Source: Ancylostoma caninum (lineage: Eukaryota > Nematoda > Chromadorea > Rhabditida > Ancylostomatidae). From it: a stretch of 64,000 nt of DNA. How positions within the stretch are numbered: the stretch's first letter is position 1; each line of letters begins with the position of its first letter. The stretch is taken from positions 62,001 through 126,000 of the forward strand of contig JBAJFG010000625.1 in the NCBI GenBank assembly GCA_037903475.1. Reading direction: 5' to 3'. Of the stretch, positions 1-63,300 are shown in pieces. The position numbers and the translations under genes are program-made. The notes under the pieces are model-generated. The model was not told where the DNA came from. It ran no database searches and was given only the letters and a program-made list of their open reading frames with translations.

Positions 1-68
1 TTCAGATGTGTGTAGAATGAAAGTTAGGATGCGTTTTATGTGTTTTATCAAAAATACATGCCAGATAG

Positions 69-74
69 TTTATT
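69..74 (-). terminator. Poly(A) signal AATAAA of the left CAP gene
   Basis: TTTATT on the plus strand reads AATAAA on the minus strand, about 58 bases past the stop codon. It is the exact mirror of the signal at 6779-6784 behind the right copy. Confidence 0.5.
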
Positions 75-131
75 TCTATCCAATAAAAAAGTAACACAAT
101 TAGGTGAAAAGGTCGCAGTAACCTGCTGATA

Positions 132-1306
132 TCACCATCGGCACAAAGCCTGACCATCACACTGACCACGTGGGCAATCAGAACATACAGCTGCGACACG
201 GTAGACGTACTGGTTGACGTTAAGACCCCTAAAGCGTAAATCACCATCGTCCAAGAAAATTTCGTTTCCTTCTATGCCATTCTCACCCAGGGCTGTACAT
301 GCAAGAGACTACGTAAAATGATCCACAGTTCTTTATGCTGCATCCAACTCTCTTGTTGCTCCACCAAGCCATCTCAAATGGAAGATTCATGTTGAAAAAA
401 GAAAAAGAATTTGCATCAAAATTTACCTTAGCCCATTTCAGGACATTCCGTGCCCCACGGTTATATTCGCTTTGATAGAACATCATGTTAGACCGCATTC
501 CAAATCTTGCCAGCTGGCTCCACCATTGTGAAAGCGCCTTAAAAAAGCTCCATTCTGATATGCACATGATGTTCCAGGATGTGGCCCTACGTAATGAATG
601 ACTGCTTTCGGATTGGCTTGTGCCTGGTTGAAAACGAAGAGGTTCTGTTTGTGACCTCCGGTCGCATAGGCAGGCAGCTCAGTTCTTCTGCAATTGGCTA
701 CTGACTGCTGCGCATAGGCCTCCGCATTGCAATCGTATTTCTAAATTATTTCATTCCTCAAGTGAATTTTTCACAAAGAATAATAAATTGTTCCTCACCA
801 TACGGTACATAAGAGCAGCTGGTGGAGCAATTCCCCAACCGGCACTTGTTTCCGTTTGTCCTCTTGCTACTCTCCCTCTGAATGAACCTCATTTAGTTTG
901 AATTACTACAAAGCAGTTCCCTAATCAATACCTGAATTCGTTGTGCATATCAAGGAAGACTTTTCTCATCCCGTTGTTTAGAGCCGGATTTCCACAATTT
1001 GGTTCTTAAGGACGAGTTTAGAAATTTCCATATATGGTATAGTTTACTACAAGAAGTAGCCTTTACTGGGCCAAGGCGGTCTGGTTGGCGGTGCCGTTGT
1101 TGCGGTCGTAGTCGTTGCATTTGGCAAAACCGTAGTCACATTCGCTGGCGGGACCGTCGAAGTACCATTCGTGTTGTTTGGTCCTTGTCCCTGTACCGTA
1201 CCGAAAAGAGCCAACAGTACCTGAAGAAGAAATTGAGGTGACCTAAATTGAGATAGTAGGGAAAAGGCCAACAACTCACAACATAAACACTGGTAACTGA
1301 AGTCAT
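132..1306 (-). CDS. CAP/SCP (ASP-like) secreted protein, left palindrome copy
   Basis: Mirror copy of the plus-strand gene at 5547-6721. Exons on the minus strand are 1280-1306, 1067-1220, 932-1004, 799-877, 591-740, 427-537, 287-372 and 132-228, and together they encode 258 residues. All splice boundaries mirror the right copy. The only coding difference I noticed is synonymous (in exon 5), so the two proteins appear identical. Two splice-site changes are visible: the donor after exon 5 reads GTAGGG here (GTAAGG in the right copy), and the last acceptor ends TTTAG rather than TTCAG; both remain usable. Domain content is a signal peptide, a Thr-rich glycosylatable linker and one CAP domain. 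The gene is divergently oriented to its twin, with about 4.2 kb between the start codons. CAP proteins are extracellular and their biochemical activity is often unknown. Confidence 0.85.
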
Positions 1307-1337
1307 GTTCCTGGATGCTGTTCAAATTTTCCGTCGG

Positions 1338-1344
1338 TTTATAT
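1338..1344 (-). promoter_or_regulatory. TATA-like element upstream of the left CAP gene
   Basis: The minus strand reads ATATAAA about 32 bases before the start codon, mirroring 5509-5515. It is preserved in both arms although flanking bases differ. Core promoters of nematodes are often TATA-less or hidden by trans-splicing, so this is only a candidate. Confidence 0.3.
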
Positions 1345-3597
1345 ACATTTGGCACAGCATAAGTGCAACTCTAACATCTCCTATCTGTACGAAATATTTC
1401 TGATCTGTGAATGCCCTTTTCTGGGATTCTGGTGATGCTTCATAACACGCAACATGAGTTCGTAGCATTTTTCAAAGCAATCCACCTTCACCTTCTTTGC
1501 TATATGGACGTTTTAATATCCATTGTACTTACAGTACTATTATGTGCACAGCTCCATAATTCACAGTAACATGTCGAATATTAGTGGAGCTCTTGTTCAT
1601 CATCGTGAACTTCGACAATGGCAGTTCAGAAGTACATTTGCCTTGTGCATTTTAGTGCTCTGAACTTTGGAAGAGATCACTAATATCACCATTATGATTG
1701 CTTATTTTTATAATAAAATTTTTACTCAAGATGCTCAAGATCACCGATCCCGTACCATTCGCGTCCACCTATAGTGCGACTTCCAAAGAAGAAAATCATA
1801 GTTGAACTTTTACCAGGAACAAGATCCTCCAGCAGTTTCCCCAATACTTGATCAATCATGCGGCCCTGTTTCGAGATCAGTTAGGTCATTCCCAGTGGTC
1901 TTTCAGAGGTAAGGTTTGTTCTTCATAATTGCATAAGCTCTAGCACAAGGACGTAGACATTGTCGAGGTCCGGAGGATTCTCTATTATTCCGGATATCCA
2001 AGCTGCATGCGCCGTTACCAGTGGAGCGCATTCCAGCGTTCAAGGTTTGCATTTCGTTTTGGTGCAGAATGGAACTTTTAGAAAGGCGCTCTCAGCTTCA
2101 ACAATATGCATTGACTTCTTGAATGTCACAATAGACAATTGGAAGCTATTCTGCCTCAAATCAGATGAAACATGACATTGAATAGGATCTCTGAAAGAGT
2201 GAAGGACCTTCTGGATATCGCTGGGCTCAGGGAATCTCTGCTAGAGCTAGTTCGTCACGGGAACTGTGCTGGCCTCGTAACATGGCCGCAATAGTGAACT
2301 AGAATTACCGAAACAGCTGAAGCTCTCGAAGTGTTCTAAATCAGTCTCCGAAGAGTACAGGATATCGTTCCTGTGTCCTAATATTCCGCCAGGTATGAAA
2401 CGAATTGCCGGAAAAAGGTGGTTGAAATGAAGCAGATCTGGAAATCACACCGCAGCTAGATGTGAGTACCACAAAGTCAAGTATATTGAGCTCTTTGAAG
2501 AAAAAATCGCATAAAAATCAAGGAGTGCGATGGTTGAATCAAAAGCCGATCCACATCTGATGAGTAGTTACAGTTATCAACCTGAGAAACAAAATGTGAA
2601 GTAAGTTCGACAAGTCAACGCAGTTCAAGTCGAATATGAACCAAAAATTAGAAATTAGAAAAAATTCGAGGAGAAAATTAGATAAGCGAAATTCAAAAAA
2701 TTAGCTAAACAAAGGACAACATTAGGCAAACGAAGAAGAGCCATGGTGGGTATGCACTGCGCTTTTTTTTTCACTTTTTCATCGCCTGCAATAACCGTTG
2801 ATGGCGGTGCGTTTCTCGAGGACAAATAAAGCACGCGGCTCAACTACGCCACTTGCGCTGGAGTCCGCAACTGCGACAACAAACTCTAAGGTCTTCCTAA
2901 TGATCGGTTTCCTTGACAGCTAGCACCTAATGTGTTGAAAAAAAAACTGCCAAGGAAAACCTGTTCTGCCGCACTACAGCTGCGATTCCAGGGTAAGCGA
3001 CGCGGCCGCGCCGCGAGCTTGCTGGTTTGGTGAAACACGTTCCACCATCGACCCTCACTGTATCTGTCACCTTTTGGCTATGAGAATACTAGAGTGTCAT
3101 AACGGAGATGAAGTATTGCATCCATGAGAAAACAGCACTGACACTTTTGCTTTGTGTCGGCGGAAGTGGCGCGAACTTTAATTCATGTATAGTGTATCTC
3201 ATATTCCTGTATTGACCAGATAACGGCGATAATTCCTGATCTGTGTGATAAATGTACGGGCCGCGCACAGTTACTGTAGATAATCACGCCCATCACTCAG
3301 TATATTCTACCGCTGCACCACCGAGTGCAGGTCGAGCGATAATGAAGCTGAGAAAAGAAATTGTGCAACATACAGCGAGGGAGCCACCCATCCTTCTGAA
3401 ATCACAGGCTCCACACATTCGCCTTACAATGTCAGAGGAAAATGCCAACTTGAGAAAAAACACCGCACTCTCATTATATTCGTTGCAGACCAGAAGGCAT
3501 CCGATGTTGTTTGAACGTATGAACTAGTAGGATATGAACAGCAAAGAACACTATCGACGATGTCTTGGAATGCACCTTATGATGATGTTGGCAAAAT

Positions 3598-3855
3598 GGC
3601 GCCAGATGTCATCAAAGGTAGATTTTTAAACACATGTGAGTGAATTTTTCAGATGAATTGCCCAAATTACTTTTAAACAATTTTTTTACAAAAAAAAAAA
3701 ACAAAAAAAAACAAAAACTGCTCAAATTACTTTTGAACATATTTTTTACAAAAGTAAAAAAAATATGTTTAAAAGTAATTTGAGCAGCTCATCTGAAAAA
3801 TTCACCCACATGTGTTTAAAAATCTACTTTTGATGACGTCTGGCGCCATTTTGCT
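3598..3855. repeat. Centre of the palindrome: nested hairpin with an AT-rich loop
   Basis: The arms converge on A-rich runs at about 3690-3715. Immediately beside them, 3718-3788 forms its own hairpin centred near 3753, built on a CTCAAATTACTTTT motif and its complement. The same motif also occurs at about 3665, giving three copies in alternating orientation. Outside this, 3598-3660 pairs with about 3795-3855. Confidence 0.75.
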
Positions 3856-5508
3856 AACATCATCATAAGGTGCATTCCAAGACATCGTCGATAGTGTTCT
3901 TTGCTGCTCATATCCTACCGAGTTCATACGTTCAAACAACATCGGATGCCTTCTGGACTGCAACGAATATAATGAGAGAGCGGTGTTTTTCTCAAGTTGG
4001 CACTTTCCTCTGACATTGGAAGGCGAATGTGTGGAGCCTGTGATTTCTAAAGGATGGGTGGCTCGCTCGCTGTATGTTGCACAATGTCTTTTCTCAGCTT
4101 CATTATCGCTCGACCTGCACTCGGTGGTGCAGTGGTAGAATATACTGAGTGATGGGCGTGATTATCTACAGTAACTGTGCGCAGCCCGTACAGTTATCAC
4201 ACAGGACAGGAATTACCGCCGTTATCTGGTCAATGCAGGAATATGAGATACAGTATACAGAATTAAAGTTCGCGCCGCTTCCGCCGACACAAAGCGAAAG
4301 TGTACACAGTGCTGTTTTCTCATGGATGCAATATTTCATCTCCTAGTTACGAAACTAGCAATTTGTTAGAGTAAAGGGATTCCGTTATGACACTCTAGTA
4401 TGTCTCATAGCCAAGAGGTGACGAATATAGTGAGGGTCGATAGTGGAGCGTTTTTCACCGAACCAGCAAGCTCGCGGCGCGGCCGCGCCGCTTACCCTGG
4501 AATCGCAGCTGTATTGTGGCGGAACAGGGTTTTCCTGGTAGTTTTTTTTTTCAACACATTTGGCGCTAGCTATCAAGAAAATCGATCATTAGGAAGATCC
4601 TAGAGTTTGCTGTTGCAGTTGCCGAGTCCAGCGCAGATGGCGCAGTTGAGCCGCGTGCTTGATTTGTCCTCAAACGCACCGCCATCAACGTTTACTGTAG
4701 GCAGTGAAAAATTGGGAAAAAAGCGCAGTGACTTATGTCGACACCCACTATGGCTTTGCTTCGTTTGCTAATCTTGTCCTTTGTTCAGCTAATTTTTTGA
4801 ACTTCGTTTATCATTTTCCCCTCGAATTTTTTTCTATATTTTGGTTTTTGGTTCATATTCGATTTGAACTGCGTTGGCTAGTCGAAATTACTTCACATTT
4901 TGTTTCTCAGGTTGATAACTGTAACTACTCATCAGATGTTGATCGGCTTTGGTTCACCCATTGCACTCCTTGATTTTTATGCGATTTTTTCTTCAAAAAG
5001 CTCAATGTACTTGATTTTGTAGTACCATCTATGTAGCTACGGTGTGATTTCCAGATCTGCTTTATTTCGACCACTTTTTTTTGGAAATTGGTTTTTCACC
5101 TGGCAGAATATTAGGACACAAGGACGAAGTTCCATTCTCCATCAAATCGAAATGCAAACCTTGAACGCTGTAAAGCGCTCCTCTGGTAATGGTGCATGCA
5201 GCAGGCAAATGTACTTCTGAACTGCCATTGTCAAAGTTCACGACGATGAACAACAGCTCTACTAATATTCGACATGCTACTGTGATGTATGGAGGTGTGC
5301 ACACAATAGTACTGTAAGTACAATCGGTATTAAAACGTCGTGCGTCCATATACCAAAGAATGTGAAGGTGGATTGTTTTGAAAAATGTTACGAACTCATG
5401 TTGCGTGTTATGAAGCATCACCAGAATCCCAGAAAAGGGCATTCACAAGTCAGAAATATTTCGTACAGATAGGAGATGTTAGAGTTGCACTTATACTGTA
5501 CCAACGGC

Positions 5509-5515
5509 ATATAAA
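5509..5515 (+). promoter_or_regulatory. TATA-like element upstream of the right CAP gene
   Basis: ATATAAA lies about 32 bases before the start codon at 5547. A CCAG ending at 5542, five bases before the ATG, could serve as a spliced-leader acceptor; if so, the TATA-like box would lie in the outron. Both readings are inference. Confidence 0.3.
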
Positions 5516-5546
5516 CCGACGGAAAATTTGAACAGCATCCAGGAAC

Positions 5547-6721
5547 ATGACTTCAGTTACCAGTGTTTATGTTGTGAGTTGTTGGCCTTTTCCCTACTAT
5601 CTCAATTTAGGTCACCTCAATTTCTTCTTCAGGTACTGTTGGCTCTTTTCGGTACGGTACAGGGACAAGGACCAAACAACACGAATGGTACTTCGACGGT
5701 CCCGCCAGCGAATGTGACTACGGTTTTGCCAAATGCAACGACTACGACCGCAACAACGGCACCGCCAACCAGACCGCCTTGGCCCAGTAAAGGCTACTTC
5801 TTGTAGTAAACTATACCATATATGGAAATTTCTAAACTCGTCCTTAAGAACCAAATTGTGGAAATCCGGCTCTAAACAACGGGATGAGAAAAGTCTTCCT
5901 TGATATGCACAACGAATTCAGGTATTGATTAGGGAACTGCTTTGTAGTAATTCAAACTAAATGACGTTCATTCAGAGGGAGAGTAGCAAGAGGACAAACG
6001 GAAACAAGTGCCGGTTGGGGAATTGCTCCACCAGCTGCTCTTATGTACCGTATGGTGAGGAACAATTTATTATTCTTTGTGGAAAATTCACTTGAGGAAT
6101 GAAATAATTTAGAAATACGATTGTAATGCGGAGGCCTATGCGCAGCAGTCAGTAGCCAATTGCAGAAGAACTGAGCTGCCTGCCTATGCGACCGGAGGTC
6201 ACAAACAGAACCTCTTCGTTTTCAACCAGGCACAAGCCAATCCGAAAGCAGTCATTCATTACGTAAGGCCACATCCTGGAACATCATGTGCATATCAGAA
6301 TGGAGCTTTTTTAAGGCGCTTTCACAATGGTGGAGCCAGCTGGCAAGATTTGGAATGCGGTCTAACATGATGTTCTATCAAAGCGAATATAACCGTGGGG
6401 CACGGAATGTCCTGAAATGGGCTAAGGTAAATTTTGATGCAAATTCTTTTTCTTTTTTCAACATGAATCTTCCATTTGAGATGGCTTGGTGGAGCAACAA
6501 GAGAGTTGGATGCAGCATAAAGAACTGTGGATCATTTTACGTAGTCTCTTGCATGTACAGCCCTGGGTGAGAATGGCATAGAAGGAAACGAAATTTTCTT
6601 GGACGATGGTGATTTACGCTTCAGGGGTCTTAACGTCAACCAGTACGTCTACCGTGTCGCAGCTGTATGTTCTGATTGCCCACGTGGTCAGTGTGATGGT
6701 CAGGCTTTGTGCCGATGGTGA
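5547..6721 (+). CDS. CAP/SCP (ASP-like) secreted protein, right palindrome copy
   Basis: Eight exons: 5547-5573, 5633-5786, 5849-5921, 5976-6054, 6113-6262, 6316-6426, 6481-6566 and 6625-6721. They total 777 nt (258 residues plus stop), and the seven introns are only 53-62 bp. Residues 1-19 form a signal peptide. Residues 22-60 are Thr/Pro/Asn-rich with four N-glycosylation sequons (N24, N27, N36, N43). The CAP domain runs from about C64: LDMHNEFR at 78-85, a WGIAPPAALMYRM block at 99-111, WWSQL near 166, AWW near 200 and a C-MYSPGG block at 222-228, followed by a Cys-rich tail. The usual GENLY-type Glu is replaced (G-HKQN at 140-144), and the GHxTQ-type His is absent, so the cation-binding CAP tetrad is incomplete. 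Exon 6 uses a TTTTTTAAG acceptor; the upstream TATCAG would break the frame. The family is abundant among secreted proteins of parasitic nematodes. Confidence 0.9.
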
Positions 6722-6778
6722 TATCAGCAGGTTACTGCGACCTTTTCACCTAATTGTGTTACTTTTTTATTGGATAGA

Positions 6779-6784
6779 AATAAA
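6779..6784 (+). terminator. Poly(A) signal AATAAA of the right CAP gene
   Basis: AATAAA sits about 58 bases past the TGA stop, within the near-identical arm, and is mirrored at 69-74. Confidence 0.5.
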
Positions 6785-9700
6785 CTATCTGGCATGTATT
6801 TTTGATAAAACACATAAAACGCATCCTAACTTTCATTCTACACATATCTGAAACACCGATCATTTCTCTCATCTTCCAGACACGTTTTTTTTTCAAACCT
6901 GAAATGCTAAAACAAGACTTTGTCGTTTGATATTGTGCTACATTTTGTCTCATCCCTACCCTGTCAATCATTTGGATTGGAATCAGCAGAACTAATGTCC
7001 ATGTAAAACTCCGAGAAATGTCTAATTCACCTAGAGTCCTGTCGAATTGTACAAAAGTGTCTCAAGGTTAGTATAGGCTCACAGAAATCTGTACCAGGAA
7101 TGTACGAAACAGAAGTTCAGATTTTCGTTAATCGTAAATCGTGAATTCCCATAACCTCCACAAATCTCAAATCGTGAGTCATTAGTCGTGGTCGTCGCGC
7201 TTGTATTGCAACGCGATGATTACTCCGAAGTGACGGCCCTAAGTGACGGAAAATTTTGAATTGTTTTATACTAAATTGGGCGCTAAAAGCACGATGTATA
7301 CGGATGAAATTTCTCATCCTCATTCAACTTCTTCATCGAACAATTAATTGGTTCTGGAAAAAAAACCCTTCCTTCTATTTGTATGCGATAGAGAGATTTT
7401 CCTTTGATTTGATCGTTGTTACAACGAAGAGGATTTTCAAAGTAATGTTCATACTGTAATACAGCAACAGTTCCTCAACAGCTGGATCACAAACTTTATG
7501 TGAGGGGAATATTCATAGAACGGCTATATCTACTTGATAGTAGGACATTATAATCATCTTCGTTACCTTGACTCCCCTTGATCTTCGGGTACATCGAGCG
7601 GGTGAAGCAGATCGTTATGTTTCTCGAAGAGATTTGTGGCTTATAAATTTTCGAAGTGCTGAATAAGAAAGAAATCTTGGTTAAAGATATTAAAAATGAA
7701 AGCTAAAAAATAAAGCAATTGGAGAAATTCCACTGAACTGTTTATTGTATTGTAATTTTATTTTACTGTGTTGCTGTGTTGTTCACATCGTAGAATATCG
7801 CCCATCTTGTCTGCAGGCGCACCACAGCAGCGGAAGCTATGGTCGTCGGTATTGCTCATGTTTGCCGGAATAAAGACAGAAACAATTGGAAAACAGTGGA
7901 AAATTTAAGCAAAACATCAATACCGCCAACTTCCGGCATGCACAGTGCCCAGCTGATCTGCCGGGCTACCTAGGGGGTGCGGCGCAGCAGATCAGACGGG
8001 CGGTATTCTATTATGCTAGAGTGGTTGAGCGGCACTGTATGAAGTTCAGAGACAGAACAATGCGGAATAACCAAAGCACAACTTCGAATGGTAATAAAAA
8101 GAAGCAGTATAAGTCATCCTCCTGAATGACTGGCGGTTCAGGTCCTTGATGCAAGGGTCGTCGCTTTCATCTTTGTGAATGCCATTCATAGACTACCTAT
8201 CAGAAGGGATGAAACAGAACACCACTACAAGATTCGGAGACGGTGACAAGCCAGGCCGAAAAGATCGCAATTCTTCTTATTTTAATCACAATAGCGCCCA
8301 ATAGAAGCACGGCAAGCCGAAATTTCTGCGTACCTCCTCCATCCCATCAAAACCATACGAACCTGACGATTGGAAGACAATGGAACCCTCACGCGATAGT
8401 TCGACAGTAGCCCACCTCTCTTATGTAGAATAATTTAAATTTTTACCATTTTGATACGCAAAACGATGGCCGCTTTTTATTGGGTTGATGCAGAAGAAAT
8501 AGTGTCATATTTTTCGGAAATATAATTTCGCTTTGAGAAAGATTGACGTACGGATATGGCAATGCATTTGTGGAGCAAAGAATGCTGTTTTATTCTCTGG
8601 CTATAAGAGATTGTTGGTTATGATCTAATGCAGAATTAGTTATGATCTAATGCAAAACCAGACGCTTGCTCAGCACTCGCTAGATAATTGGAAATGTCCA
8701 GAAGTCTTGTTATCAGTTTTCCGAATCTTCTTGATTTTTCTGTGACATTACAAGCAATGCACTCAAAGATCCCCTCTTTCTATTTGGCTCAAATGTCTCA
8801 ACCTCCTCCACATGTGAGCTCCGTTACAACAGCCTCGGTTCCACGAAAACATAGATAGATCTTTTCAAAACATTCCCTTCGTTACTTCTAGAATGACTCA
8901 CTCTTTGCCACTCTTCAACAACACCTTCAAGAAACCCCATTGCTGTTATTAACCTCAAAAAGTCGCCAATGGTCTGCTGGAAGAACGCTCGGGACGCTGT
9001 GAAGCGCATTTTCTGCACCCCAAATTTTGCCCAATATTTGCTTCAGAGAGCTGGCTTAAACTTTGCTGATTTAATTGGGATACGTTTGGACAGTCACCGT
9101 ATTCTTCAAGGAAATTGCCACATTTCCCCATTTTTTCCCACCTCCAGAATCTCTTTTTCTGCAGGAAAAAAAATCGCCAAACATCACTAAATCGTTTTTT
9201 GTTATTCCTGGCTTCCCACTTCGTAAAGATGTGGGAGCAAGGCGTCAGGAACTAGCTCATACGATAAGCAATGGTTCCTGCTAATTAAAAGAACTCCATG
9301 CCTTGGGAAAGTTATCTTCTGTTAAATTTGTGAAAGAAAATAGAGTCAACACAAAAAAAGCTCCATTTCTTTTGCGAAAACCTAATATTAAGAGACATTA
9401 ACGTTACCCGAAAGTCGAATCAGCCCGGCCGGGCCACCTGAGCCACTGAATGTATGGATGTGGCCTGTTACTGGGTGACCTGAGGCCATTCCTGCTGGAT
9501 TTGGAGCACATAGAGAAAACATCTTAACTGAGGCATTAGAAGACGGATGTTGGGCAAATACGACGCGAACGCCATGGTTTCAAACCCTCTCCACACGCTT
9601 GCCTAAAGTATCCCTTTGATTCTTTGAGTAAATTTCCCTGAAGATTTCGAGATTTCAAATTATTTGAAATTTTTGTGCTTCTAGGCAAATTTACAAGGAA

Positions 9701-38118: not shown

Positions 38119-38226
38119 GGTACCATTTTGAGGACTGCAAGAACTACTACAAAACAAGTGCGTAGAAAAACCGATGATCCCCTGATCTGTTCCTGACTCC
38201 AGATATACAGGGGGAGAAAGACACAC

Positions 38227-38276
<50 letters not shown>

Positions 38277-38432
38277 GATGGCAATGGAAGCTATAGCGCG
38301 TTCACTATGGACGATAGTTGGGAAGGTACCATTTTGAGGACTGCAAGAACTACTACAAAACAAGTGCGTAGAAAAACCGATGATCCCCTGATCTGTTCCT
38401 GACTCCAGATATACAGGGGGAGAAAGACACAC

Positions 38433-38482
<50 letters not shown>

Positions 38483-38532
38483 GATGGCAATGGAAGCTAT
38501 AGCGCGTTCACTATGGACGATAGTTGGGAAGG
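38119..38532. repeat. 206-bp tandem duplication, each unit with a (GA)n core
   Basis: Two adjacent copies begin with GGTACCATTTTGAGGACTGC at 38119 and 38325. They look identical through an ACACACACACC stretch, a (GA)n tract (38232-38272 and 38438-38478) and the end GACGATAGTTGGGAAGG. The GA tract length is the same in both units, which suggests a very recent duplication or an assembly duplication. Confidence 0.92.
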
Positions 38533-50378: not shown

Positions 50379-53300
50379 TTTCACAAGCGTGAACCGATGG
50401 AACATGGTTCAATGATTCTCATGTTCTCTCTACGAATTATAAGATAAGGGGCGGAGTTACAGGACCAAGAATCATCCATTTCATGAGAACAGAAGCTATG
50501 GTATGATGTACGAAGTATAAAACTAATCGTGGGTTCCTGGAAACAGACGTCATGACAAAGGGTACCCGTTTTCGCTAATTTTGACTGAAAGCTCAACTTT
50601 CGCCCCAGGAAAGAGTGAAAAGGAACTAAACCAAACAACATACGACAAAGGATAATTCCAGTAAAAAGGACTGATGAATGCATAAGAAATTGTTGACGAG
50701 GAAGAAGAGGCAGCTGATCGGTCAGCAAGCGAGGACTACTCCCAGTGGCGCAACAGTAGATTCACCCAGAAAGTGTGCTAGATTGACATGGGCTACAAGC
50801 GTGAGACTCTAACGCGCATGGAAAATGGAAAAAAAAGCTATAATTAAGAGGCAGGGCGCGCATCATCCTAGAAAGTAGGTTTTTTTTTCTAGACTGTTAT
50901 TACTAAGAAATTATGTGCTTAGTGAGATCCCGTGATATCCATGAAATTAAATACTCAGAAGTGAGGAGATGACAGGTCATGATGTATGTAAGTACATAAG
51001 TACATTGAACGAAATGGTCTCCGGCACAGAAATCTGTCAAGAAGAGGATTCGGGATTAACTCGTTGGTAAACTGCGGAAGCTACTAAACCCAAAGTACCG
51101 TCATTGTGCGCATTTGCGGAAAGCACTTGGAAGTAGTCAGCTGGCGGTCGTTTGGAATGCAACACCACATCGTCTGGAGCACCGCAGAATCCATTTTTAA
51201 CTGCAAACACTCCGGCTGTAATTGAAGATTCCGGATTTCTACGTGCTCTAGCATAGCTACACCATAAATGGCATTAGAGCGCTGGCTCCTTCAACAATAT
51301 CCCCAACTCTTCCCTTGCGGAGAAATGGCATGTCACCTTGCAGAACATGCCATGGCCAGCGTCTCTGGATCCGCATTAGCAGGATAAGTTGAAGAATTTG
51401 TTGAAGAAGTTTATGCACTAATTCCATCTATGTATGCTGTAGCTATGGTAAAACCCCTACAAGGCCGGAATCTACAACACGTCGCAGTGTTTGCAGCTGA
51501 AACTGAGCTTTATAGTGCTCCAAACGATGTTGTGTGTCGCGGTCCAAACGGACACACCCGTCTGCAAGTAATTTCTGCAAATGCACAACGTCATCATTGG
51601 ATTAGCAGCTGTCGCAATCTAGTATGGAACAGACTCCTTTTGTTTTTGGCACATTTCCGGACATGAGATCTCTTCCCCGGAAAAGCTGCTGAGTTCCTAG
51701 CACGCCAGGGCAATGTGTTCAGCGCTCTAGGGGCATAGCACTCCCTAGTTAATGTATTTTTTGTACATATGTACACAGAACGCATGACCGAACACCAGTT
51801 TCTCATCGAAAGCAAAGTGCATTACCAGCGAGCCCAACACACCCAGATCAAGACGGGGAAAAACTGCTCCGAAGGAAAAAATGTGCCCTAACGAGCTTCC
51901 CACACATGGGACTCGGCAGAAGCTGGCAAAAAAAATTGAAACGAGCCTACATATTTTCATGGACTTTTACGGACTCGGGAAAGACTATGGGTATAGCTGT
52001 GTGAGAGTGAAATCTAGGCAAACACATGCATATCTAAGTAATCCCCAGAGATCTTCTAATTCAAACGGATAATAACAATGGGTACAATTCAGAGATCACT
52101 ACCCCTTCCGTCCGCTTCATAACACACCATATTTTCTTCCTAATGAAGCGTATTTACCCTTTTTTTCATAAAACCCACAGCTAACGTCACGGCATGCCAA
52201 TAGGCCTTTCAGCTGTCCTTGCATTTAGTTCTGCTTGCAGGGTAATCTTATCTAAGCAGAAATGTCACAGCTTCTCATATATGTTACTTAGGCAGGATTT
52301 ATTTTATTTATTAAGTCAGCCCCCACCACTGATCCTGCAATACATACTAAACTTCTCCATTATTTGCAACATCTCCGCAAGGCCTTGCACACCACAGAAA
52401 TTAAAAGAAAGAAAATGGAAGAATCGCAGGGAGAAGCAAAACAGTACTCTAAAAATACCACTACTCCAGCTATGAGTACTGCCTCTCAATGTCAGCAAAC
52501 ACAGAAAAACATCACGCTGCAAACAATTGTCGTTACTAAAAATACCCACACTACTTGAATCACAGAGGAGTTCCGTTGATATCGCAATGACGCACGAAAT
52601 CAAGAACGTGTGCCACTGATCAAACATATCCTAGCACTTATTTTCTTCCTTTTTTCTTTTCAGGAAAAAGCAGTCACTTCAGGATCTCAAATTTCCACAG
52701 CAAATGGCCGAGTCACGTTCAAAACAGAATGTCCGCCACGGTATTCGAAAAATTCAACAAATCGCGAGCTAGATTGTGGAGTGTGGCTTTTCGAGTGGTC
52801 GAACATCTCTACCTACCGGATGGATCGAGTAACCGATTGTTTCGACCATTCGTTATATTCGAATATTCGATTGAAATTACGGATTCCAAATCACGGATTC
52901 CAATGTAAGGAGGAGGATGGAGCACAGAACAGGCTTCGACTATAAAACGATGCCATGTCGCTCCAGAATCAAATATCAGGCTGTGGCGCGTTATACCTGG
53001 AAAGGGGGTGCACCTAAGCTCCACGATTGGTCGGTTCACTCAACCGGCCAATTGCAGGGCCCGTGAGCACCGCCCGTGCAATGCCAAGGTACAACGTTCC
53101 ATACCACGAATATCCCCTAAACACAAAGAATAATTCCCCAGAAAAATAGTGTTTCTCTTCCCAAGAATGTCGATTGTTCATAGTTCTTATTAATTATTAC
53201 TTATCCGTCATTTTTACTATTATCAATTGTTTTCTCTTTCATTATTGTAACAACTGTATGGTTACACCTAAGAACCGTATGTATTCTCGTTTTTGAGTGT

Positions 53301-60380: not shown

Positions 60381-63300
60381 CTGGACGCCGAATCACCAAT
60401 CACTCGTAGGTGAATCCATCGATTTTAAAGTATTCCGCAATACTGACATTACAATAGCGCACCATGAAGAAATGGATTTATAGATTTTATTGATTTTACC
60501 TGTTTTGCCGCTTCTGCCACAGGGACGTGTGAGAGCATCTTTAACGGGGTTCTCTAATACGCCCACTACTAATATGGCGACGATTTTAAACGAAATCATC
60601 GATTTTTTTTGGCTTTTCCAATCCTTCCGCTCATGTTTGGGTAACAAAAAGTCACCGCAACTATGTAAAATCAAAATTATAAGCGTTTCATGTTACTAGT
60701 ATCACTAAATTTCCTCTTCAATGTGAAAAAAAGCCGCGGATGGTAAATCTCGAGAGGAAACCGGGTATGCCCTCTATTTTTGACATAAGTTCAGACGATG
60801 CACATTGTGCAGACATGCATGCCGCATCAATTGACATTTAGAAATCGACCTTGGAGACGCCTTTAAAAAATTGCTTGAATATCGTCATTACAGGGTGAGC
60901 CAAAATTTTGGCAGCAACATGTGGTTTGCCCCTAAAGGAACTTGTTTTGCCTCAGAGTTAAATTCAATTATTTCGAAACATTTTACCAGGAAAATGCTTC
61001 GGCGAACAAGTCGCGTCTGCCTCCATGTGAGGCAATAAACATAATTCTTATGGCATTGTCACAAATTACAGTGAATTTTTTTCCTGCGCATTCCTTTCTT
61101 CGTTACCGTATCTGGCACGTGGCTGGCTGAAATGTGGAAGTTCTGTTCCTCCCAGCCTGGAGGTGCCTATTAAAGACACGACGAAGAGTTTTGAACATAG
61201 GGATGGGTAGAGCGCTTGTCCCCAAAAAACCCATTTTGCCCCCCAAAAAAACTCATTACGTTAGGATTTTAACAGTAACTTCACAACACATCCAAGCAAA
61301 CTGCGACAACTGACATAGGAAAAGCGCTGATGTATGAGAAGAGGCATTATTCAAAAAAAAAGGATGGGCATTAACAGTTTCGATTTGAAAAATAAAGAAA
61401 ATTGAAGGCTCGAAGAGCTTTTCTATGCACTGATCAGAAAAAATCGCTCTTCTTTGTTCAGATCTCCTAGAAGCTCCTTAGTCGTAAGATGTAATGATTG
61501 AGTTCGTAGGAAATACCCGTTTGTGAGTGCCCCTTAAAAGTGCAATAAATAAATAGAATAAATATGCAAATATGTATTACCAAATATTCTGACACGGTTT
61601 CTTTTACTATTAGTTGATTAATTTGCTCATTGTAACACATATACAACAACGGCAGACACCAGGCAGAGGAAAGCGATTATTGGTTAGAAATAAATAACAA
61701 ATCTTATGAATTTCCTCATGGAAATTCGTATGATTAAATAAATTCAGGGTTCATTAACAGAACTTGTAATAACTGCATTTTACGTTTCAAATACCGGTAA
61801 TGATATGACAAATCAGCATTGTCTATTCTAATAAATGAACAAATGAATGAATTTAAAAGAATCAGAAGTCTAACAATGCACAGTGACTGATTACTAACGC
61901 CCATAAGACTCCAGATTGCTCAGGAAAAAGGTCTGAATGCTTGTTGAAAGCAAAACCGGTGCCCCTAAAGCAGTCAATTCGTCCAACTCCATTTCCCAAT
62001 ATTAGTGGAAATTTTCGCAGCTGTACAAACGCTGCTAAAAACTGCCGCTATTGACTTTTTCCTGAGTCCGGAATAATGCATAGGGCCTGGAATAGGCCTG
62101 CTAGCCCAAAAGAAAGTCGGCCAAAAGTTAGCGTTTAGAAAACATGTGGATGTGGAAGATAGCAACAGAAGCGTTTAGAGAACATGTAGATGTGGAAGTC
62201 AGACATAGTATACTCAGAAACGAGTAGTGCATTAGATATATTCGGATTCGAAAATTCGATTTCAAACAGGTTGAAATTTTGGATTTCCAAAGAGTAGGCA
62301 GACGTACAGTACTTGAGTAATGATAATGAGCTGTTAAGGGCTTTTACTTTTTTCAGCATTCGAATTTCTAGGATAGCTTACTGGATTTATAATCGAATTG
62401 GGTAATTCAATTTTTATTCGATCCTGAGAATCAAACAAAGAATGAACTTGGCTCCGTTTTCAGTACCCAACACCGACCAATTCCAGGCAGCTATTGCCAC
62501 AAAAAAACCATCTTTCGAATTAATTTGGCATATGTCAGAAGTGTTTCATATTTCATCAAGCATTATTATTATTGTTTGATATTTCATCAAGCTACATACA
62601 CAAAGAAAAAACCAATGACATCACCTTTAGGGAGAAATGGTATCTATCTGCCACCACTAGTCCACCAGAATGGAAGGCTGGATGCTGTAGCTAGGAAAAA
62701 GAGCATTCTAGAATTTCAGCCAGCAGAAACGAAAATATATTCGTTTCCCATCTAGATGACATCGGAAAAGTAACAGGCTTCAGCATGAAACTGACTCTGA
62801 ATAATGTTCATATGAAGGCAGAAGCAATAAGAGATGACGTGCTCATGAAAAAGGGTGTGGCCTAGCTACAAATCTTGCCACCCAACAATTTTTCCTCAAA
62901 ATTTGCAGTTTCAAATCAGCTCGGCTGCTGATTTAGGGTGGACGTCATATCGCGTGCGGCTCGAACAGAGGGAAGGGCAAGGATAGAGACTTCATTAGGG
63001 GGAATGGACTTTTCCTGCTGAAGAGCACCGTAACCCTAGGCGAAGCGCTTCTTAGAAGCTCAACAATGACGCTTCAGAAGCACATAACAACTTACAAGGA
63101 ATTAACAATGAACGACAAGAAAGCACATAGAGCAGCACACTCAGGTCTTAAGTCCCGGATATGGGCGGTCAGCGTGAGCATATTCCAAATCAGCAGCGTC
63201 TAATGCGTCAAGGGACACTTCTCAACGACCAAAATTCTTCCCGGCTTAGCCTGGAATGATGGAGTACTCAGCCGGCGGCAGGGACGGCAGCGGCTGCGGC

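Follow-up and report, generated by a model that had tools for sequence, protein, structure and literature searches.

The CAP gene locus

The DNA analysed here is a stretch of 64,000 nucleotides (nt) of the Ancylostoma caninum genome (contig JBAJFG010000625.1; positions 62001-126000 of C361 in G000, a genome of 348 Mb in 638 contigs) and is called the window below. It starts within a palindrome that carries two CAP genes. Coordinates follow the numbering of the window, negative positions lie to the left of its start, and L and R denote the left and right arms and their genes. In hookworms the CAP/SCP proteins form one of the most expanded families of secreted proteins, and vaccine candidates are found among them. 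The preliminary description of this DNA had proposed twin head-to-head CAP genes with identical proteins, and this is what was found: both genes are intact, their 8 exons are separated by 7 introns of 53-62 nt, neither reading frame contains an internal stop, and both encode the same protein of 258 amino acids (aa). The gene parts are also nearly unchanged between the arms with introns included, as had been claimed; the coding regions differ at a single synonymous site and the introns at 4 of 398 sites. The features of the locus are listed below.

132..1306, minus strand: left CAP gene L, 258 aa, 8 exons (1280-1306, 1067-1220, 932-1004, 799-877, 591-740, 427-537, 287-372, 132-228); the A of its ATG is position 1306
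5547..6721, plus strand: right CAP gene R, encoding the same 258-aa protein as L, 8 exons (5547-5573, 5633-5786, 5849-5921, 5976-6054, 6113-6262, 6316-6426, 6481-6566, 6625-6721)
5510..5515, plus strand: TATAAA, a putative TATA box read from the sequence, 37 nt upstream of the right ATG and just within the homogenised block
6779..6784, plus strand: AATAAA, read from the sequence as a candidate polyadenylation signal of R
1..1344, minus strand: homogenised outer block of the left arm, differing from the right arm at 6 of 1344 sites and running beyond the window to -330
5509..7177, plus strand: homogenised outer block of the right arm; beyond its outer end at about 7177 there is no more similarity to the left arm
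1345..3073, no strand: middle part of the left arm, with 10.8% divergence between the arms and with stretches of 358 and 288 nt that the right arm lacks
4415..5508, no strand: right middle arm, counterpart of 1345-3073
3074..4414, no strand: central palindrome, 4.9% diverged, with almost no spacer

The L/R protein contains a CAP domain (Pfam PF00188, residues 78-224, 45.1 bits against a cut-off of 21.1), while its score for the Pfam family ASPRs (PF17641) stays below the curated cut-off (20.2 against 26.3 bits). The closest solved structures by sequence are those of Ancylostoma secreted protein 1 and 2, and the N terminus is hydrophobic, as judged by eye only. When the exon model of R was moved onto a related copy on another contig (C622) and exon 5 was left out, it gave exactly the A. 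caninum protein P0006 of 209 aa. Judged by domain content, the twin genes are assigned to the ASP-like CAP family (SCP/TAPS). A tblastn search with 66 related proteins at E 1e-3 gave no further CAP match in 6852-64000, and no RNA family reached the gathering threshold within the window.

Divergence along the arms

The inverted arms match at 99% over 1-1510 and 5343-6852, and farther inward the similarity is patchy at 84-97%. Segmentation by substitutions separates three levels of divergence, with 6 differences in 1344 sites in the outer block (0.45%), 116 in 1075 in the middle arm (10.8%) and 30 in 612 in the centre (4.9%). The corresponding arm identities are 99.6, 89 and 95%, so that near-identity is not a property of the arms as a whole. 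The main change-point separates 6 differences in 1344 sites outside from 146 in 1687 inside, with a log-likelihood gain of 67.8 compared to at most 9.8 in 1000 permutations, and its support interval (1322-1345) lies 16-39 nt upstream of the ATG. The longest identical run between the arms measures 456 nt, compared to at most 230 in 2000 permutations. At the break the alignment of the arms is collinear and free of indels. Large indels of 358, 288 and 40 nt do occur between the arms, in agreement with the hundreds of inserted or deleted bases noted earlier. The inner differences comprise 99 transitions against 47 transversions with few small indels, and in this they are more like mutations than read errors.

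A steep rise of substitutions just upstream of the ATGs had been described. The change-point supports this, but there are three levels rather than one step, and if clustered changes are counted once the break moves to 1465, with a support interval of 1327-1477 (21-171 nt upstream of the ATG) and a gain of 35.6. The difference between middle and centre then has a p value of only 0.067. The step near the ATG owes much of its sharpness to a cluster directly upstream of the TATA box (1345-1359 / 5494-5508), where 15 nt contain 5 of the 7 differences in 1345-1464; 1360-1464 then holds 2 differences in 105 sites. This small cluster could be a multi-nucleotide change or a divergence of the promoters of otherwise identical genes.

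On the outer side the near-identity does not end with the genes. The window starts within the left arm, and by BLAST the arms extend to -330 and 7177 (99.4%). In the five-way alignment introduced below none of 325 aligned L-R sites in -330..0 is substituted, and for the 3′ non-coding DNA past the stop codon (-330..0 plus 1-131) the count is 1 in 456. The earlier statement that the arms are conserved only over the genes was thus too narrow. The six differences of the outer block are distributed over introns (4), one synonymous site and the 3′ flank (1). In total the homogenised part takes up about 1.67 kb of arms of about 4.1 kb, which is the outer 40%. Beyond -330 and 7177 BLAST detected no matching arm sequence, only a direct repeat of 39 nt.

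The innermost 535 nt (3456-3990) are predicted to fold as one long hairpin of -260 kcal/mol, compared to a mean of -52 for 100 shuffled sequences. Near the axis a segment is doubled as a direct repeat (3656-3701 and 3716-3763, 85%). The central palindrome was considered as a possible dispersed repeat; its longest open reading frame (ORF; 3805-4161, minus strand) had no match in a protein search. ORF 5065-5442 (minus strand), considered as a possible remnant of a gene within the diverged part, gave no homologue, and a Pfam scan of 10 ORFs yielded nothing convincing. The GC content is 43.2% in the outer arm, 42.5% in the inner arms and 41.7% in the flank, with 34.7% in introns and 37.4% at four-fold sites.

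A third copy and a change of partner

The gene has a third copy, T, which is found in direct orientation at a distance of 19 kb to the left (-19043..-15476) and matches L from -40 to 4008 except for 1804-2299. T includes the axis of the palindrome, and therefore the L/T duplication is later than palindrome formation. Sites were counted in three-way comparisons according to which two copies agree against the third (LR|T, LT|R and RT|L). The segment -330..0 was left out of these counts since similarity to T ends at -40 (unfiltered, it gives 122 LR|T sites and none of the others), and 1651-2364 had no column holding L, R and T. Over the gene, in 1-1306, there are 26 LR|T, 1 LT|R and 5 RT|L sites. 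Directly upstream of the break, in 1345-1650, there are 24 LT|R sites and none of the other two kinds. Farther inward the numbers of LR|T, LT|R and RT|L sites are 9, 86 and 5 in 2365-3073 and 0, 30 and 1 in 3074-3687, or 9, 116 and 6 for both segments pooled. The contrast of 26:1 and 0:24 at the break has a Fisher p of 1e-13.

Trees were built from five copies, which are L, R, T and two copies on other contigs, C622 and C164a. For 1-1344 the group (L,R) has a support of 98/95, and L+T is rejected with a p value of 0.016 in the approximately unbiased (AU) test. For the upstream part the group is (L,T) with a support of 100/100, and L+R is rejected (p-AU 1.7e-5). The mosaic of divergence and the change of partner at the break were thus both observed, and the partner relation differs between the homogenised block and the parts farther inward, as expected of inverted paralog pairs kept alike by gene conversion. 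Where copies switch partner at a single point of collinear DNA, this marks copying between paralogues. At residues 30 and 213 L equals R and differs from T, whereas T, C622 and C164a agree there, and the state in L and R looks derived. In 1465-1650 R is nearer to C622 (5 differences in 186 sites) than to L (17 in 186), which hints at another exchange tract.

The divergence between L and T is uneven: 0 in 344 sites at 1307-1650, 1 in 614 in the centre, 15 in 707 at 2365-3073, 12 in 398 in introns and 15 in 131 past the stop codon. Within the gene L, R and T are all close. On this pattern several exchanges among several copies would be needed. Past the stop codon L is near R, with 1 difference in 131 sites.

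Conversion or constraint

Intron and upstream divergence were compared as a ratio, with 2365-3073 taken as upstream. The ratio is 0.08 for L-R, 0.15 for R-T and 1.4 for L-T, 0.45 for C622-C164a, and 0.31-0.72 across all seven pairs that involve C622 or C164a. At a ratio of 0.45 the probability of no more than four differences among 398 intron sites is 6e-7, and at 0.31 it is 3e-4. Some constraint or older exchange may also act on the gene part. That the ratio is low for R-T and not for L-T gives a hint of L-type DNA having been copied into R within the gene, but past the stop codon L is far from T and near R, and copying could have gone either way.

The view that gene conversion rather than selection on the protein made the genes alike is supported by the switch of L from R to T and by introns and a 3′ flank that are nearly as alike as the exons. 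Constraint alone, with a gene block kept by selection and a spacer free to change, can point to introns that are less diverged than upstream DNA by a factor of 1.4 to 3.2 in the seven C622/C164a pairs. For L-R, however, this factor is about 13, the outermost 3′ flank shows 0 differences in 325 sites, and the switch of L from partner R to partner T at the break contradicts this explanation, as constraint alone cannot produce it. We consider it barely credible. An assembly artefact, by a fold-back read, mis-joined haplotypes or polishing that evened out the arms, would suit a palindrome that is nearly spacerless, and where short reads map to several places, polishing can make near-identical repeats more alike. 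Yet the arms differ by transition-rich substitutions and large indels, polishing is not expected to bridge 11% divergence, copy T holds the same axis, and the palindrome does not lie at a contig end (the contig measures 351,269 bp and the window starts at 62001). An artefact is therefore highly improbable.

The main rival, which fits as well, is that the second gene arose through one-ended copying. Here break-induced replication or template switching would have started in an older inner inverted repeat, continued outward through the gene to -330 / 7177 and ended in a join to unrelated DNA, so that the palindrome would have grown instead of being corrected. In agreement with this, the homogenised block begins in homologous DNA and ends where the similarity of the arms ends, and the similarity of R to C622 stops at about 7184 whereas that of L continues to about -404, as if the outer edge of R were a junction. 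T, C622 and C164a, on the other side, carry the inner upstream DNA beside a CAP gene, so both arms, R with less certainty, probably had the gene from the start. A newly written gene is on balance unlikely.

We therefore favour conversion-type copying between the arms as the probable explanation, with the outer part of one arm overwritten along a tract of about 1.67 kb, which is long. Several observations weigh against it. The block ends where arm similarity stops, so that only one tract end lies within homologous DNA. With clustered changes counted once, 1345-1464 does not differ from the outer block (p 0.13) and the break is less sharp. The rejection of L+T in the gene is moderate, and the groups compared were chosen with the patterns already in view. 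The patchy L-T divergence calls for more than one exchange. The gene part is less diverged than upstream DNA in the seven C622/C164a pairs too, and for L-T the relation is reversed. GC-biased conversion would raise GC in the outer arm, and the values given above are not clearly raised, a comparison made without a significance test. Finally, the support comes from one assembled genome of one species.

Proposed course of events

Under the conversion mechanism, a CAP gene together with about 2 kb of its upstream DNA would long ago have been duplicated in inverted, head-to-head orientation, which gave rise to a nearly spacerless palindrome. The arms would then have diverged by about 11%, and a direct copy of one arm including the axis, T, would have arisen nearby. 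Interlocus gene conversion, from L to R or from R to L, could afterwards have copied a tract of about 1.67 kb, by which the 3′ flank, the whole transcription unit and the TATA box were rewritten. The twin genes would thereby have become identical, whereas the intervening DNA would still show its age. The copying would have replaced an older gene and was presumably intrachromosomal. The palindrome itself may have helped the exchange, as the central 535 nt could form a very stable hairpin. The L/R pair belongs to a small dispersed set of copies that seem to exchange tracts elsewhere too.

Comparison with known systems

Conversion between inverted paralogs is already known from Caenorhabditis (PMC1803023, PMC3966223). 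The former proposes gene conversion for divergent and convergent inverted paralog pairs including F44E5.4/F44E5.5, of which the genes are 100% and the intergenic arms 95.7% identical, with a spacer of 126 bp. The hookworm locus is of the same type, with adjacent paralogs in opposite orientation, palindromic intergenic DNA and genes that are more alike than the intergenic arms. In the hookworm the contrast is larger (0.45% in the gene block against 10.8% in the middle arms) and the spacer is almost nil. The Caenorhabditis structure was shown in three species and the hookworm one in a single genome, but here a third copy allows a direct phylogenetic test. The word "intron" was not found by a term search of the main text of PMC1803023. 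In the sections of PMC3966223 on interlocus conversion, hsp16, act-1/act-3 and col-12/col-13 are given as cases that take in introns; as at our locus, ORF and introns are alike and flanks diverged, and adjacent inverted pairs are among the examples. The same review cautions that a recent partial duplication can look like conversion. Two features of the hookworm case, the similarity that passes the inner break and the switch of L to another partner at this point, are not accounted for by a simple recent duplication.

The preliminary description had also drawn a parallel to gene-bearing palindromes on sex chromosomes. In mammals, according to PMC8981503, genes in the arms of such palindromes are kept alike by arm-to-arm conversion with an identity above 99%, and the arms of primate X palindromes are GC-rich compared to their flanks. 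The likeness holds as an analogy only, since in the hookworm just the outer 40% of the arms are alike and GC is not clearly raised; the nearer precedent is formed by the Caenorhabditis inverted paralog pairs. Among the literature matches listed (titles and beginnings of abstracts) there was no report of CAP gene conversion in hookworms.

If conversion between inverted copies indeed equalises some members of the family and mixes others, CAP copy counts, orthology and selection tests can mislead, and new CAP variants could arise through copying rather than mutation. As the locus combines three copies close to one another with sharp switches, conversion can be tested on it directly.

The wider gene family

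A DNA search for family copies gave at least 55 matches, with 40 of 77 candidates scored. The five-way alignment contained R, L, T, C622 and C164a; L040, L042, L043 and L044 were used in further comparisons, L041, L045, L053, L054, L008 and L009 in pair comparisons only, and L041, L045, L046 and L047 also in BLAST. Among these matches, neighbours in opposite orientation within 15 kb also occur on C164, C139, C634, C92, C295, C438 and C29, and neighbours in the same orientation are T and L here and copies on C29, C469 and C592. The pairs on C164 and C139 are probably one locus. The members of the C139 pair are 99.84% identical over 3819 nt and those of the C92 pair 99.92% over 3642 nt, lengths that include up to 1.5 kb of flank on each side. 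In both, the fetched flanks are as alike as the genes, unlike in L/R. The C634 pair is 87.4% identical over 1291 nt.

Copy L040 (C164:9010931) contains a 606-nt tract, 1720-2325, which corresponds to window positions 5749-6354 and has no counterpart in L044 (C139:300379). The tract differs from R at 2 of 606 sites, from L at 4, from T at 6, from C622 at 10 and from C164a at 24, and from L044 at 103 of 604. The 103 donor-type sites fall into three runs that are interrupted by two recipient-type sites. Beyond the tract, L040 and L044 show 0 differences in the 1690 sites that precede it, 26 in 1385 sites of 2400-3790 and 0 in 402 sites of the outer flank; they look like two versions of one locus. 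The tract resembles an ectopic conversion tract that has not reached fixation. An error at the contig end is possible, however, since the end of C164 is about 2.7 kb away and the frame of the tract, as mapped mechanically, contains internal stops. We tentatively propose that inverted CAP pairs recur and form an exchange network in which twins are kept identical, gene pieces are moved between palindromes on different contigs and chimeric CAP genes are still segregating, although this broader scheme is rather less than probable.

Other repeats

At 38119-38532 a 206-nt unit occurs twice with 100% identity, each with a (GA)20 tract, which may be a very recent tandem duplication or a duplication in the assembly. 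The stretch 51149-51550 is self-inverted over 422 nt at 67%. Between T and the palindrome, L021/L022 (-10100 to -6940) consists of about 3 kb of diverged direct repeats, with identities of about 64-88% at many offsets. The segment 57216-57378 is self-inverted over 163 nt at 90%, has relatives at about -14200..-13400 and may be a dispersed foldback element.

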